From Rhodoligotrophos appendicifer (GTDB lineage: Bacteria > Pseudomonadota > Alphaproteobacteria > Rhizobiales > Im1), in assembly GCF_007474605.1 (NCBI RefSeq), contig NZ_VHKL01000006.1, positions 1 through 64,000 on the forward strand: a DNA stretch of 64,000 nt. The letters run 5' to 3'. Position 1 is the first letter of the stretch; every line of letters starts with the position of its first letter. The notes under the pieces are model-generated. The model was not told the DNA's origin. It was given only the letters and a program-made list of their open reading frames with translations, and made no database searches. The position numbers were made by a program, and so were the translations under genes. Of the stretch, positions 16,878-58,039 are shown piece by piece.

Positions 16878-17579
16878 TCAGGCGCTGGCACGCACATTGT
16901 GGCGGCGCTTGATCATCTCGCGCGCCGTTTCGACCGCCACGGCCGCATCCCGGCAATAGGCATCAGCGCCGATCGCCGTTGCGAACTCCTCGTTCAACGG
17001 CGCGCCTCCCACAAGCACAATGTAATCGTCGCGGATGCCCTTCTCCTTCAGCGCATCGATGACGACTTTCATATAGGGCATGGTTGTCGTCAGGAGCGCC
17101 GACATGCCCAGAATATCCGGCTGATGTTCCTCGATGGCCGCGAGATACTTCTCGACGGGGTTGTTGATTCCGAGATCGATCACATCGAATCCCGCCCCCT
17201 CCATCATCATCCCGACGAGGTTCTTGCCGATGTCGTGGATATCGCCCTTGACGGTGCCGATCACCATCTTTCCCTGCTTTGGCGCTCCTGTCTCCGCCAG
17301 CAGCGGGCGGAGAATGAACATTCCCGCCTTCATGGCATTGGCGGCAAGCAGAACTTCCGGCACGAACAGGATGCCGTCACGAAAGTCCACCCCGACGATG
17401 CGCATGCCCTCGACCAGCGCCTCGGTGAGGACGCGATAGGGCGTCCAACCCCGCCCGAGCAGGATGTTGACGGCAACCTCGATTTCCTCCTTGAGGCCGT
17501 CATAGAGATCGTCATGCATCTGCTGAACGAGCTCATCATCGTCCAAGGAATTGAGATCGAGTTCTTCTTCGTTGCTCAT
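16878..17579 (-). CDS. Corrinoid (cobalamin-binding) methyl-carrier protein, MttC/MtbC type
   Basis: This 233-residue carrier holds the cobalamin that shuttles methyl groups. A helical cap domain (about residues 10-95) with ILLGRGWTPYRVLTEALVEGM precedes the Rossmann-like B12 domain. That domain has the signature D113-x-H115-x2-G118 in KGDIHDIGKN, where His115 would replace the lower ligand of cobalt, then GMSALLTTTM near 162 and LVGGAPLNEEFA near 190. ATG 17579 has GGAG 6 nt upstream; an in-frame GTG four codons earlier is less likely. It is the only corrinoid protein gene in the window, so it probably serves both MttB paralogues and the pterin-binding methyltransferase. It is transcribed separately, with a 634-nt upstream region. 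Confidence 0.92.
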   Translation of the reverse strand: MSNEEELDLNSLDDDELVQQMHDDLYDGLKEEIEVAVNILLGRGWTPYRVLTEALVEGMRIVGVDFRDGILFVPEVLLAANAMKAGMFILRPLLAETGAPKQGKMVIGTVKGDIHDIGKNLVGMMMEGAGFDVIDLGINNPVEKYLAAIEEHQPDILGMSALLTTTMPYMKVVIDALKEKGIRDDYIVLVGGAPLNEEFATAIGADAYCRDAAVAVETAREMIKRRHNVRASA

Positions 17580-18213
17580 CCCACTCTCCACAAATCGTCA
17601 AGGCGGACACCCGCAGAATTGTCTTATCGACAACAGCTGGAAAGGCCGACGCCTCTTCTCCCGTTGCCGCAATCATTCCTGGCGCGACCGCAGCTCCAGC
17701 TATGGCATGTCCCCAGGTCCATGCATCGCACCCAGCGACCGGAACACGCTCGAAATCGACATGGCGCTCCAAAACGCACTGACATGCCTCTGCGCCTGCC
17801 GCCATCGTGACCGATGCGGGTTGTGAGGGCCGTGGAGCGCCGAGCGGACGCGTATGGTTTTAGTATATGTAGCGACCGATCGGCGCTCCACGCGTGCCGT
17901 TCCAGCCGACGCCTCTTCGCGATGCCTAAGCTGGTCTACCCAGCGGTCCGCCCCGTGAGGGATGGCCGTGCAGAACGCGATATGACGTGAGCCTTGTCCT
18001 GTTCCCGTTCGTTACACGGGATGACAGAAAGCCCCGCATCTCCGCGCATGCCGGCCGGTCCGGACAAGCCCCCCACGCGGCGAAGACAAGCGCAGTATGA
18101 CACGCGCTGGAGGCGCGGGGATAAGTCGGCGGGTGATGTAGCAGTTTCGGGTGCGAGGAGATCGAACCTCATCGATCCCGGCGCGTTCCCTCTGCCTTTT
18201 CCGTCATCCTCTC
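17580..18213 (-). other. Long intergenic region upstream of the corrinoid protein gene
   Basis: About 630 nt without a convincing gene. It holds a 13-bp inverted repeat with an AT-rich centre (17,831-17,892) and fragments similar to the CGGGATGAC palindromic intergenic repeat (around 18,015-18,025). It probably contains the promoter of the corrinoid protein gene and the 3' region of the methyltransferase gene. I looked for a cobalamin riboswitch box and did not find one. Confidence 0.45.
17831..17892. repeat. 13-bp perfect inverted repeat with AT-rich centre
   Basis: CGTGGAGCGCCGA (17,831-17,843) is repeated in inverted form at 17,880-17,892, separated by 36 nt whose middle is AT-rich (GGTTTTAGTATATG). 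ACGCGT also occurs in both flanks. It lies about 250 nt upstream of the corrinoid protein gene. It could be a long hairpin in a leader transcript, a pair of operator half-sites around a promoter, or the relic ends of a small mobile element. Confidence 0.5.
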
Positions 18214-19227
18214 TTAAGACGGTGCGCGGCGACGGCGGCGTTCGCTGGCTTCCGACCGGGCGGGAGCTGCACCATGAGCGAGGGCGGAGACTTCGCCGAG
18301 CTTTGCGGTGATCTCCTCGACGCTGGGACGGTCGCCTTTCTTATGCGCCTCCAGGGCCGAGCGCATGGCCGCGAGATGCTTTGGCTCGGTGCCACAACAG
18401 CCTCCGATGATGCGTGCGCCTGCATCGAGCGCCAAGCAGGCATAATCCGCCATGATTTCGGGAGTGCCGCTGTAATGGATATGACCACCGACGAACTGGG
18501 GTATGCCGCAATTGCCTTTGGCCACGACGACCGCATCGGGTCGTGCGGCGGTGATGCCGAGAACGGTTGCCACCAGCTCAGCGGCACCCGTCCCGCAATT
18601 GGCGCCGATACCCGCGGGCTGCTTGTCCAAGGCGGCTGTCATGGCGCCGAAAGCCGCAGGCGTGATTCCCATCATGGTTCGACCATTGGTATCGAAACTC
18701 ATGGTGGTCACAATCGGCAGTCCGGCCTGCGAAGCTCCTTCCATCGCCGCCTTGAGCTCCTCTTCCGACGAGATCGTCTCTATCCACAAGACGTCTGCAC
18801 CGCCCTCCGCCAGAGCCCTTGCCTGTTCAGCGAACGCGTCCGCTCCATCGGCAATGGAGAGGGGCCCCACGGGCTCGAAGATTTCTCCCGTGGGTCCCAT
18901 GGACCCGGCCACCAGCACAACACGACCGGCAGCATTTGCCTCTTCGCGAGCCAGCTCTGCTGCGCGCTTGTTGAGCTCATGAACCCTGTTTTGCGCATCA
19001 TGCAACTTCAGGCGGTAACGATTGCCGCCAAAGGAATTGGTCAGAATGAGATCCGCCCCGGCCTCGATGAACTGTCGGTGCAGCGATCGGACACGATCGG
19101 GATGATCGACATTCCAGAACTCCGGGGCGTCGCCCGACTGCAGGCCCATTTGGAAGTAGTTGGTGCCCGTAGCCCCGTCGGCCAGCAGCCATGGCCGCGA
19201 GGCGAGGAGATCGAGGAACTTCGACAT
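18214..19227 (-). CDS. Betaine/methyl donor:homocysteine S-methyltransferase (BHMT-like)
   Basis: This 337-residue TIM-barrel enzyme belongs to the zinc-dependent homocysteine S-methyltransferase family. It begins with LLADGATGTNYFQMG, typical of the family, and carries the zinc ligands in GANCGTG (about residue 205) and GGCCGT (about 271). Such enzymes pass a methyl group to homocysteine to form methionine; the best known donors are glycine betaine and S-methylmethionine. ATG 19227 has GGAG 7 nt upstream, so the longer frame to 19344 is not used. The C-terminal 30 residues are basic and low in complexity. It sits beyond the corrinoid protein gene on the same strand. It could use betaine directly, providing a second route for the substrate of the MttB system; the donor is not determined. 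Confidence 0.85.
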   Translation of the reverse strand: MSKFLDLLASRPWLLADGATGTNYFQMGLQSGDAPEFWNVDHPDRVRSLHRQFIEAGADLILTNSFGGNRYRLKLHDAQNRVHELNKRAAELAREEANAAGRVVLVAGSMGPTGEIFEPVGPLSIADGADAFAEQARALAEGGADVLWIETISSEEELKAAMEGASQAGLPIVTTMSFDTNGRTMMGITPAAFGAMTAALDKQPAGIGANCGTGAAELVATVLGITAARPDAVVVAKGNCGIPQFVGGHIHYSGTPEIMADYACLALDAGARIIGGCCGTEPKHLAAMRSALEAHKKGDRPSVEEITAKLGEVSALAHGAAPARSEASERRRRRAPS

Positions 19228-19480
19228 GTGGCAACTCCATGGAATTCCCGTTGAGGAGCCACAAAATGACCCTGGATGCAACTCTGATCCGCCGCAGCGC
19301 AGCATATACCACCCCTGGACCGCACGCGGGTTTGGAGCTACCACAATGACGCGAGCCGGCCGGTACTCTATCGGGACGATGGCATGACGATGGTGCTGGA
19401 ATCACATCGCCTGCCTGCTTCTCGGCCGCCCGATCCAAGCTCCTGCCCGGCCCGTGACAAGGGGTTTTTGGAGACAGAAC

Positions 19481-53912: not shown

Positions 53913-54076
53913 CGGCGTCTGGCTCCCTTGCCCCGCGCCTCGGGCGACAGGCGACGGCCGATCAACAGCGGGGCCCCCTCCTCTTTCCTCTCTCCCCCTG
54001 CGGGAGAGGGAGGGGTCTTATCGCTGGGAGGCTGAGGGGCAGTCTCAAGGCTCTCCTCAGTTTTGCCGGTGCTCAT
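53909..54076 (-). CDS. Short frame linking cysS and cimA (55 aa), uncertain
   Basis: A 55-codon frame starts at ATG 54076, overlapping the cysS stop as ATGA, and ends overlapping the cimA start as ATGA. This double overlap is what translational coupling would produce. The peptide is hydrophilic, rich in Pro, Gly, Glu and Arg, and matches no family I know. Much of it is encoded by a palindromic repeat, so it may be a repeat that happens to be open and keeps ribosomes moving from cysS to cimA rather than a functional protein. Confidence 0.4.
53980..54036. repeat. CTCTCCC/GGGAGAG palindromic repeat
   Basis: CTCTCCC at 53,990-53,996 pairs with GGGAGAG at 54,002-54,008 around a 5-nt loop, inside a longer C-rich then G-rich stretch (CCCCCTCCTC and GGGAGGCTGAGGGGC). 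It resembles the common alphaproteobacterial intergenic repeat built on CTCCCCCTGCGGGAGAGGG. It interrupts the space between cysS and cimA without breaking a reading frame. Confidence 0.55.
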
Positions 54077-55479
54077 CGGGCGACCTCCCAGGTGGTGACG
54101 GGCTCGCCCGTTCGCGGATCCTTGACATCCTTGAGGGCGATGCCTTCGGCCAGGAGCACGTCGCGTATGCGGTCTGCCTCGGCCCAATCCTTCTCCTTGC
54201 GCGCCCTCAATCGCTCACCGATCAAGGCGCGGATCCTCGGCTGGTCAACACCGGCGCGCTGCCAGCTCTCCTCGAACCATTCTTTCGCCGACCGCGACAT
54301 GAGCCCCAGCCCTTGGACCGATGCCTTGAAGATCCGCCGCTGGTCTCCCATTCCCGACTCACCGAGATCGCCCAATTGGGCAAACAAGGCGTGCAGCCGG
54401 GCGATGGCACGCGGCGTATTGAGGTCATCGGAAAGCGCCTCGAGCACCTCCTCGTCGAGGGCCGCCGCCTCAGGCGCGTTCACATCGGCCTGATACCAGT
54501 AGTCGAGCGTCTTGCTGCTCTCCTCCAGCCCTTTGAGGGTCCAGTCGATCGGCTGCCGGTAATGCGTCTTCAGCATGTTGAGACGCACCACCTCCGCTGG
54601 CCAGTCCCCCAAGACATCTCGGATCGTCACGAAATTCCCCAGGGACTTGGACATCTTCTGCCCTTCGACCTGGAGGAAGCCGTTATGCATCCAGATATTG
54701 GCCATGACGTCGGTGCCGAAAGCGCACGTGGTCTGGGCGAGTTCGTTCTCGTGATGGGGAAAAACCAGGTCGATCCCCCCGCCATGGATGTCGAAGCGCT
54801 CGCCCAAATAGCGCCAGCTCATGGCCGAGCATTCGATATGCCACCCTGGGCGGCCGCGGCCCCAGGGGCTATCCCAACCGGGTTCCCCCTCATTCGAAGG
54901 CTTCCACAGGACGAAATCCATGGGATCTTGCTTGTAAGGCGCGACCTCGACCCTGGCACCGGCCTGCATCTCTTTCAACGGCCGCTGCGACAGCAGACCG
55001 TAATGCGTGTCGCTGGGCACGTTGAACAGCACATGCCCCTCCGCCACATAAGCATGGCCACGCGCAATCAGCCGCTCGATGATTTCGATCATCTGCGGGA
55101 TGTTATCCGTCGCCCGCGGCTGATGAGTGGGCTCGAGGCAGCCCAATGCTGTGACGTCCGCCTGGAACTGGGCGTTCGTCTCGGCCGTGACTTTGGCGAT
55201 CGCCTCGTTCAGCGGCAGCCCGGGATGGTCCTGGGCGGCCCGGGCGTTGATCTTGTCGTCGACATCGGTGATGTTGCGCACATAGGTGACGTGGCTCTCG
55301 CCGTAGAGATGGCGCACCAGACGGTACAACACGTCGAAAATGATTACCGGCCGCGCATTGCCGATATGAGCGAAGTCATAGACCGTGGGCCCGCAGACAT
55401 ACATCCGCACATTGGATGGATCGATGGGCCGGAACTGGTCCTTGCTCCGGGTCAGCGTATTGTAAAGCTTGAGCGTCAT
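54073..55479 (-). CDS. cysS: Cysteinyl-tRNA synthetase
   Basis: CysS charges tRNA-Cys. The 468-residue class I synthetase has the zinc Cys29 in [19 protein letters not shown], the HIGN motif at 38-41 and the KMSKS motif near residue 276 in [26 protein letters not shown] near 232 contains the other zinc ligands. The C-terminal helical domain ends normally. The start is ATG 55479. It is followed by a short coupled frame and cimA on the same strand. No unusual feature apart from this arrangement. Confidence 0.96.
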
Positions 55480-55667
55480 GGCCTATGCGTCCTGGCGCTG
55501 GCCTGGGCGGGTGCTCTTCGTATGTCGGTGAAGATCGAGCGGCCGCAGCGCCAGCGAGATTGCTAGCGGATAATAATGCTGCCGCGGCAGGCGGCATTGG
55601 TGGCGGCGGTTGTCATGGGCGCCACCATGCGCAAAGCTTGCAGCCCACGTCAAGATGCTTCGTGACC

Positions 55668-55674
55668 AAAGGAG
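55668..55674 (+). promoter_or_regulatory. Ribosome binding site that indicates a CTG start
   Basis: AAAGGAG lies 6 nt upstream of CTG 55681, the ideal distance. The frame is closed by TGA at 55,663, and there is no ATG, GTG or TTG codon until 55,795, well inside conserved sequence. Confidence 0.6.
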
Positions 55675-55680
55675 ATCACC

Positions 55681-56625
55681 CTGCCCCCGCTTCACACCAG
55701 CCTCGCCGAGCCACCGACGATCCTCACCGATGGTGGAATCGAAACGCGGCTGATTTACGAGTTCAATCTCGACCTTCCCGAATTTGCTTCGTTCTTGCCC
55801 CTGGTCCGGCCGGGCCAACGCTGGGCCCTGGAAGCGATCTATCGCAGTTACTTGGAGATCGCTGCAGAGACACAGCTGCCGATGCAGCTTGGCACCCCCA
55901 CGTGGCGCGCCCATCCCGACTGCCTGGCCCGGCTTGGCTTTGGCCATGCCGACGATCTCGCGCGCATCAATGGCGCCGCCGTCCGCCTGCTTCATGATCT
56001 GCGCCGCGACATGGGCCTCGAATATCTAATTGCCATCGCCGGGGTAATCGGTCCACGCCGCGATGGCTACGATCCCGCGGAGGCCCCGTCCCCCGAAGTC
56101 GCTCGAGCCTATCACTCGATCCAGGCCGAGATGCTGGCGGAGCTTGGCGTTGACCTTCTCTACGCCCCGACTTTCGCCAGCGCCGCCGAGCTGGAGGGGG
56201 TTGCTGCCGCCATGGCGGCAGCAGGCCTGCCCTATGCTCTTGCTCCGATCATCGATGCGGGCGCACGCATGCTGGATGGGACGCCTCTTGCCGAGGCGAT
56301 TGCCCGGATCGACGCGAGGGTGAAGCCTGCACCGCAGCACTATCTGATCGGCTGCGTCCACCCGACGCTGTTCCGAGAGGCCTATCAGAACGGTCCCAGT
56401 CTGACGGCCGCAGTGGCTGGACGCATCGCCGGACTTAAAGCCAATGCCTCAACCCTGCCGCCGGATCAGCTCGACAGGCTGGACCATCTCGAGGCGGGCC
56501 TTCCGCAACTCTTCGGCGAGCAGATGGCTGATCTCCATAGGCGCTACGGCCTCACCGTGCTCGGCGGCTGCTGCGGAACGGATCATCGCCACATCCGCGC
56601 CATCGCCGAGGCGCTGCTGGGGTAA
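55681..56625 (+). CDS. Homocysteine S-methyltransferase family protein, apparent CTG start
   Basis: This 314-residue zinc enzyme belongs to the homocysteine S-methyltransferase family. The N-terminal ILTDGGIETRLIYEFNLDLPEF is conserved in the family and lies upstream of the first normal start codon (TTG 55795), so translation must begin at CTG 55681, behind AAAGGAG, or the sequence has an error there. Zinc ligands are in IGCVHPTLF (about residue 223) and LGGCCGTDHRHIRAIAEAL near the end. It is distinct from the enzyme at 18,214-19,227 and belongs to the shorter group found with housekeeping genes. The methyl donor is unknown; S-methylmethionine or a betaine are typical of relatives. Confidence 0.8.
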   Translation: MPPLHTSLAEPPTILTDGGIETRLIYEFNLDLPEFASFLPLVRPGQRWALEAIYRSYLEIAAETQLPMQLGTPTWRAHPDCLARLGFGHADDLARINGAAVRLLHDLRRDMGLEYLIAIAGVIGPRRDGYDPAEAPSPEVARAYHSIQAEMLAELGVDLLYAPTFASAAELEGVAAAMAAAGLPYALAPIIDAGARMLDGTPLAEAIARIDARVKPAPQHYLIGCVHPTLFREAYQNGPSLTAAVAGRIAGLKANASTLPPDQLDRLDHLEAGLPQLFGEQMADLHRRYGLTVLGGCCGTDHRHIRAIAEALLG

Positions 56626-56647
56626 AGGATCGGACGCAGCTGGGGCC

Positions 56648-58039
56648 CTACTCAGCGGCGTCCAGGCTCTCGACTTCTTGAGGCTTGAATGCGGACTCTT
56701 TCTTGAGCTGTTCGGCGATCAGGAAAGCCAGCTCCAAGGCCTGGTCCGCGTTCAGGCGGGGATCGCAGAAGCTGTGATAACGATCCGACAGATCAGCCTC
56801 CGTCACCAGTTGTGCGCCGCCCGTGCATTCGGTGACGTTCTTCCCCGTCATCTCGACATGGATTCCGCCGGCATGGGTACCCTCGGCCTGATGCACCGCC
56901 ATGAACCGCTTCACCTCGCCCATGATCTGATCGAAGGGCCGCGTCTTGTAGCCGGTGGAAGCCTTGATCGTGTTGCCATGCATGGGATCGCAGGACCACA
57001 CCACATGCCGACCGGCGCGCGTGACCGCTCGGATCAGGCCGGGCAGATGCGCCTCCACCTTGTCGACCCCGTAGCGGCAGATGAGCGTCAGCCGGCCTGC
57101 CTCGTTGGACGGATTGAGAATATCGATCAGCCGCAGCAGCTCATCAGGTGTCAGGCTCGGTCCGCATTTGAGGCCGATCGGGTTCTGAACACCCCGGGCG
57201 AACTCTACATGCGCCCCCTCCGGCTGGCGCGTGCGATCGCCGATCCACAGCATGTGGCCCGATGTTGCATACCAGTCGCCTGACGTCGAATCGACCCGGG
57301 TCAACGCCTGCTCATAACCGAGCAGCAACGCCTCATGGCTGGTGAAGAAATCGGTCTGCCTGAGCTGTGGTGCAGTATCGGCATTGATGCCGATGGCGCG
57401 CATGAAGTTCAGCGTTTCTGTCAGCCGGTCGGCAAGCGCCTGATAGCGCGCGCTCGCCGGACTGTCGCGCAGGAAGCCGAGCGTCCAATTATGCACATGT
57501 TCGAGATTGGCATAACCGCCCTGGGCGAAGGCGCGCAGCAGGTTCAACGTGGCCGCCGACTGCCGATAGGCCATCAATTGCCTCTCGGGATCCGGGATGC
57601 GGCCCTCGGGCGTGAAATCGTTGGAATTGATGATGTCGCCGCGATAGGCGGGCAGCGTCACGCCGTCGACTGTCTCGTTCGGTGCCGAGCGTGGTTTGGC
57701 GAACTGGCCGGCGATCCGGCCGACCTTGACCACCGGCGAGGAGGCGCCGAAGGTCAGCACGATCGCCATCTGCAGAAACACCCGGAAGAAGTCGCGGATA
57801 TTGTCGGCAGAATGTTCTTCGAAGCTCTCAGCGCAATCGCCGCCCTGGAGCAGGAAGCCTTTCCCCTCCGCCACCTTGGCGAGTTTGCGCTTCAGCTTTC
57901 GCGCTTCTCCAGCAAAGACCAGCGGAGGAAATCCCTTCAGCTGCGCCTCGACGGCAGCCAGCTTCGCGGCATCCGGATAGTCCGGCATCTGGACCACCGG
58001 CAGAGTGCGCCATGTGTCGGGTGTCCAATGCTGTGCCAT
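56648..58039 (-). CDS. aroG: Class II 3-deoxy-D-arabino-heptulosonate 7-phosphate synthase
   Basis: This 463-residue protein is a class II (plant-like) DAHP synthase, the first enzyme of the shikimate pathway, joining phosphoenolpyruvate and erythrose 4-phosphate. Diagnostic segments are [14 protein letters not shown] near the start, [11 protein letters not shown] near 80 with the metal Cys, and [14 protein letters not shown] near 295. [14 protein letters not shown] near 355 and [12 protein letters not shown] near 400 hold further metal ligands. ATG 58039 has GGAG 8 nt upstream; the frame upstream of it is open to 58,243 but has no family similarity. It converges with the homocysteine methyltransferase gene, 22 nt apart. 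Confidence 0.94.

Follow-up and report, generated by a model that had tools for sequence, protein, structure and literature searches.

Initiation of translation at CTG codons has been studied in several bacterial systems. Ribosome profiling in Caulobacter crescentus placed CTG starts at 0.7% of the mapped coding sequences (PMC4117421), and 20 of nearly 85,000 annotated genes, i.e. 0.024%, are reported in PMC11983097 to carry one; a preliminary description of the DNA studied here had called CTG starts rare in bacteria. PMC11983097 also describes the rep gene of the F-plasmid FIB replicon, whose CTG start was proven both by mutation and by analysis of the N-terminus and which is usually misannotated at a downstream GTG, as well as an E. 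coli reporter in which the output from CTG was roughly tenfold lower than that from TTG (PMC11983097). Initiation complexes on CUG are reported to be less stable (PMC11497404), and a CUG with a Shine-Dalgarno (SD) sequence upstream of the Caulobacter dnaA gene gave a toeprint, yet was, by the account in PMC8443254, unused in vivo.

The DNA analysed here (the window) is a stretch of 64,000 nucleotides from Rhodoligotrophos appendicifer, in which a gene of the homocysteine S-methyltransferase family stands alone between the genes for cysteine--tRNA ligase and class II DAHP synthase (Table 1). The gene forms one open frame with neither stops nor frameshifts, and its product, when read from the CTG codon at 55681, matches PF02574 over its whole length (profile positions 2-283) at 111.3-111.4 bits, with a gathering cut-off of 22. 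C225, C297 and C298 are invariant in the five aligned sequences, and the cysteines of GCVHP and GGCCGTD are kept; we take these three residues to be the zinc-binding cysteines of PF02574, one in the middle of the protein and a C-terminal CC pair. By its sequence, the gene encodes an intact PF02574 methyltransferase on the chromosome. The name homocysteine methyltransferase used in the preliminary description holds at the family level but not for a specific enzyme, since the product reaches none of the NCBIfam equivalog cut-offs, the betaine-homocysteine methyltransferase model PRK07534 scoring 60.5 bits against a cut-off of 338. A paralog with 39% identity is encoded on contig C23 of the same genome. 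Elsewhere in the window, the region 16878-19344 contains a clear betaine-homocysteine S-methyltransferase gene (NF005718, 520 bits, cut-off 338) and, near it, a separate gene for a corrinoid-binding protein whose best match, the MtgC-like NF047996, lies below cut-off; the proximity of these two genes suggests a B12-dependent methyl-transfer cluster. Searches for Rfam RNA elements at 55000-56700 and for a sigma-70-like promoter at 55400-56700 found none.

Table 1. Features of the methyltransferase locus and its proposed start region
Feature	Position	Strand	Basis
cysS (cysteine--tRNA ligase), divergent neighbour	54073..55479	-	
29-codon ATG frame with its stop, in frame with the gene, without coding signal	55576..55665	+	
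TGA stop closing the frame 5' of the gene	55663..55665	+	sequence
AAAGGAG, SD-like, complementary over 7 nt to the usual 3' tail of 16S rRNA	55668..55674	+	
CTG, proposed start codon, at the position of the ATG in orthologs L025-L028	55681..55683	+	
PF02574 gene of the homocysteine S-methyltransferase family; 314-residue product if read from CTG, stop codon included in the coordinates	55681..56625	+	
TTG, first in-frame conventional start; TDGG segment deleted if used	55795..55797	+	
Class II DAHP synthase, convergent neighbour	56648..58039	-	

From 55663 the start region reads TGA CCA AAG GAG ATC ACC CTG CCC CCG. As had been described before, AAAGGAG is separated from CTG 55681 by a 6-nt spacer, the frame is closed at 55663, and no ATG, GTG or TTG occurs between the stop and the conserved coding region or anywhere before 55795. 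It had also been claimed that a start at TTG 55795 would remove the TDGG segment (TDGG-IET), which is correct because the TDGG codons occupy 55726-55737; the truncated product in addition loses PF02574 profile positions 2-32, its match falling to 102.3 bits and starting only at profile position 33. Upstream of TDGG, no codon besides CTG 55681 has a usable ribosome-binding site: no SD match is visible by eye before ACG 55717 or ATC 55720, and ATC 55675 directly adjoins AAAGGAG with a spacer of 0. The N-terminus of a product read from CTG 55681 would be (M)PPLHTSLAEPPTILTDGG. The 29-codon ATG frame, identified by eye, ends 15 nt upstream of the CTG in the same frame, and might form a coupled leader of the methyltransferase gene.

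Coding signal was scored as codon log-odds, with a model for which 108,288 codons of a sample of the same genome served as training set. Codons 55681-55794 score +9.5 in frame; among 885 windows of 38 codons sampled from genes, this is the 37th percentile. The other forward frames scored -17.6 and -12.0, and the reverse frames +8.1, -7.0 and -8.1; given the reverse frame at +8.1, the model is not decisive on the strand, which is decided by homology. The 18 codons from the CTG (55681-55734) alone scored +3.6, and the two remaining forward frames -7.4 and -5.0, so that among the forward frames only that of the gene looks coding here, whereas the upstream segment 55576-55662 scored -0.7 over 29 codons and is not coding-like.

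A scan of named genomes with the single protein as query returned no relatives, and one with a three-sequence alignment returned ten homologues with identities of 41-64%. Their starts were compared by counting the residues that separate the start codon from the first residue, D or E, of the conserved D/E-G motif, the choice among several possible starts being ours and the distances in L026, L028 and L030-L033 being counted by eye from the translations. For CTG 55681 this distance, up to the D of DG, is 16 residues, and precisely the same value is found for an ATG in four of the ten homologues (L025-L028, identity 59-62%), so that relatives of the kind that the preliminary description had considered supportive do exist. 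This ATG is preceded by a clearly SD-like GGAGG or GGAGGT at 3-5 nt in L025-L027, and only by GGAG at 11 nt in L028. The other six homologues and both congeners start at different distances, with ATG at 17 residues in L029, at 22 in L024 and at 15 or 22 in L030, and with a start at 12 residues in each of L031 (TTG), L032 (ATG) and L033 (GTG).

Each of the two congeneric genomes has one strong ortholog (65% identity in G001 and 63% in G002), with a GTG 28 or an ATG 3 residues before the motif in G001, and a TTG 29, an ATG 6 or a GTG 4 residues before it in G002. Neither has a start at the column of CTG 55681, and the longer of their possible N-termini are without coding signal, from which it follows that the N-termini vary within the genus. 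At the congeneric loci, the candidate starts are a GTG and a very short ATG (1447 and 1522) in L010, and a TTG and an ATG (1444 and 1513) on the reverse strand in L011. Beyond these, a fourth genome of the family had no ortholog at E 1e-70. At E 1e-60, 6 of 297 genomes from the order gave a match, half of these 6 being of the same genus, and at E 1e-55 the matching genomes numbered 15 of 385 from the class, R. appendicifer included; neither set contained a close ortholog outside the genus. Since CTG is needed by none of the orthologs examined, it appears to be a derived state in R. appendicifer, and the CTG start looks private to this genome.

CTG use was also surveyed in a genome sample of 864 kb, made up of 40 stretches of 20 kb and the window, with 559 predicted genes. 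The conventional starts chosen for these were ATG in 443, GTG in 83 and TTG in 33, the methyltransferase gene being forced to a conventional one. Among 223 codon positions that precede the first usual start and are joined to it by a coding-like stretch, six, spread over three genes, have an SD of at least 6 nt at 5-9 nt. CTG 55681 is the only CTG among the six, and the adjacent codon, CCC 55684, uses the same SD; the other four positions (L065 and L081) were judged by eye to lie in spurious frames. The methyltransferase gene is the only one of the 559 with a strong SD and a CTG before its first usual start, and there is no sign of wide CTG use in the genome, in a survey that underestimates CTG starts because a gene is counted only where 15 codons or more are free of any usual start.

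AAAGGAG is complementary to what is presumably the usual 3' tail of the 16S rRNA (the anti-SD sequence). In the 33-contig assembly, no match to a longer tail pattern and no SSU match was found; a lone 14-mer match to the 16S tail (L089) was rejected as the 16S 3' end, not being rRNA by Rfam, and a full match to the alphaproteobacterial tmRNA (alpha_tmRNA) lies on contig C5. In the genome sample, 19 of the 559 chosen starts have an SD of at least 7 nt, and a 7-mer of the anti-SD complement is found 5-9 nt ahead of 5,791 of 1,725,294 positions (0.34%). By itself the motif AAAGGAG-N6-CTG is no rarer than chance, with 8 matches in the 5.59-Mb genome versus 19 for the reversed pattern. RNA folding of 55641-55740 is not stronger than that of shuffled sequences (z = +1.15), and the leader is predicted to be weakly structured or open. 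The weight lies in the coincidence of the motif with the closed frame, the coding signal and a position that matches the ATGs of orthologs.

Initiation at CTG 55681 is the best explanation of this locus, and a very probable one; the earlier proposal that the gene starts there is supported by the ATG of relatives at this position, by the coding signal and by the lack of a rival ribosome-binding site upstream of TDGG, and the codon is probably genuine as a start, of a rare but unremarkable type. Two alternatives are unlikely, and equally so. In the first, a sequencing or assembly error conceals an ATG, GTG or TTG in an entirely ordinary gene. CTG is indeed one base from each usual start, relatives have ATG there, and the genome is a draft of a single strain, but the intact frame gives no sign of poor sequence, and isolated base errors are rare in draft assemblies. 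In the second, a recent change from ATG to CTG has abolished expression of the gene, or almost so, and decay is setting in. The confinement of CTG to this genome is consistent with such a loss, and the C23 paralog and the betaine-homocysteine methyltransferase of the window are possible replacements; on the other side, the frame and the family-invariant residues are intact, the strong SD is kept, and in the reporter mentioned above CTG retains a low level of initiation (PMC11983097). Least probable of all is a start elsewhere, at ATC 55720 or ACG 55717 (which keep TDGG) or by read-through or reinitiation from the nearby upstream ATG frame. In its favour are the alignment of ATG 1522 of G001 with ATC 55720, the ATG of G002 close to the same place, and the presence of that ATG frame 15 nt upstream; opposed to it are the missing SD before 55717 and 55720, the missing spacer at ATC 55675, the coding signal of 55681-55734 and the lack of one in 55576-55662.

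For the CTG start, the single start codon of the gene would have arisen by substitution of one base in the ATG (or GTG or TTG) that relatives have, the strong AAAGGAG would position the ribosome in the weakly structured leader, and initiator fMet-tRNA would read CUG despite the first-position mismatch. We infer from the sequence all three of initiation at CUG, a protein beginning with (f)Met, and an output that is probably lower than from ATG. It is very unlikely that selection has kept the weak start as a low-output or regulated switch, e.g. one sensitive to IF3 or to the supply of fMet-tRNA; on this reading, weak starts might characterize the gene throughout the genus, as the orthologs of the congeners can also be read from GTG (G001) and TTG (G002). 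Gene finders that admit only ATG, GTG and TTG would put the start at TTG 55795, and thereby drop the first strand and the TDGG segment; the methyltransferase gene is a clean case for adding CTG starts to alphaproteobacterial annotation, and leaves the knowledge of initiation itself unchanged.

A CTG start of this kind is rare but already known in Alphaproteobacteria. The CTG-initiated genes of C. crescentus in PMC4117421 are likewise alphaproteobacterial and chromosomal, but their starts were measured by ribosome profiling, whereas that of the methyltransferase gene is deduced from sequence. Like the methyltransferase gene, the FIB rep gene starts at a CTG that follows a good ribosome-binding site (PMC11983097); however, it is a plasmid replication gene whose CTG is common to related replicons, whereas the methyltransferase gene is metabolic and has its CTG in one genome.
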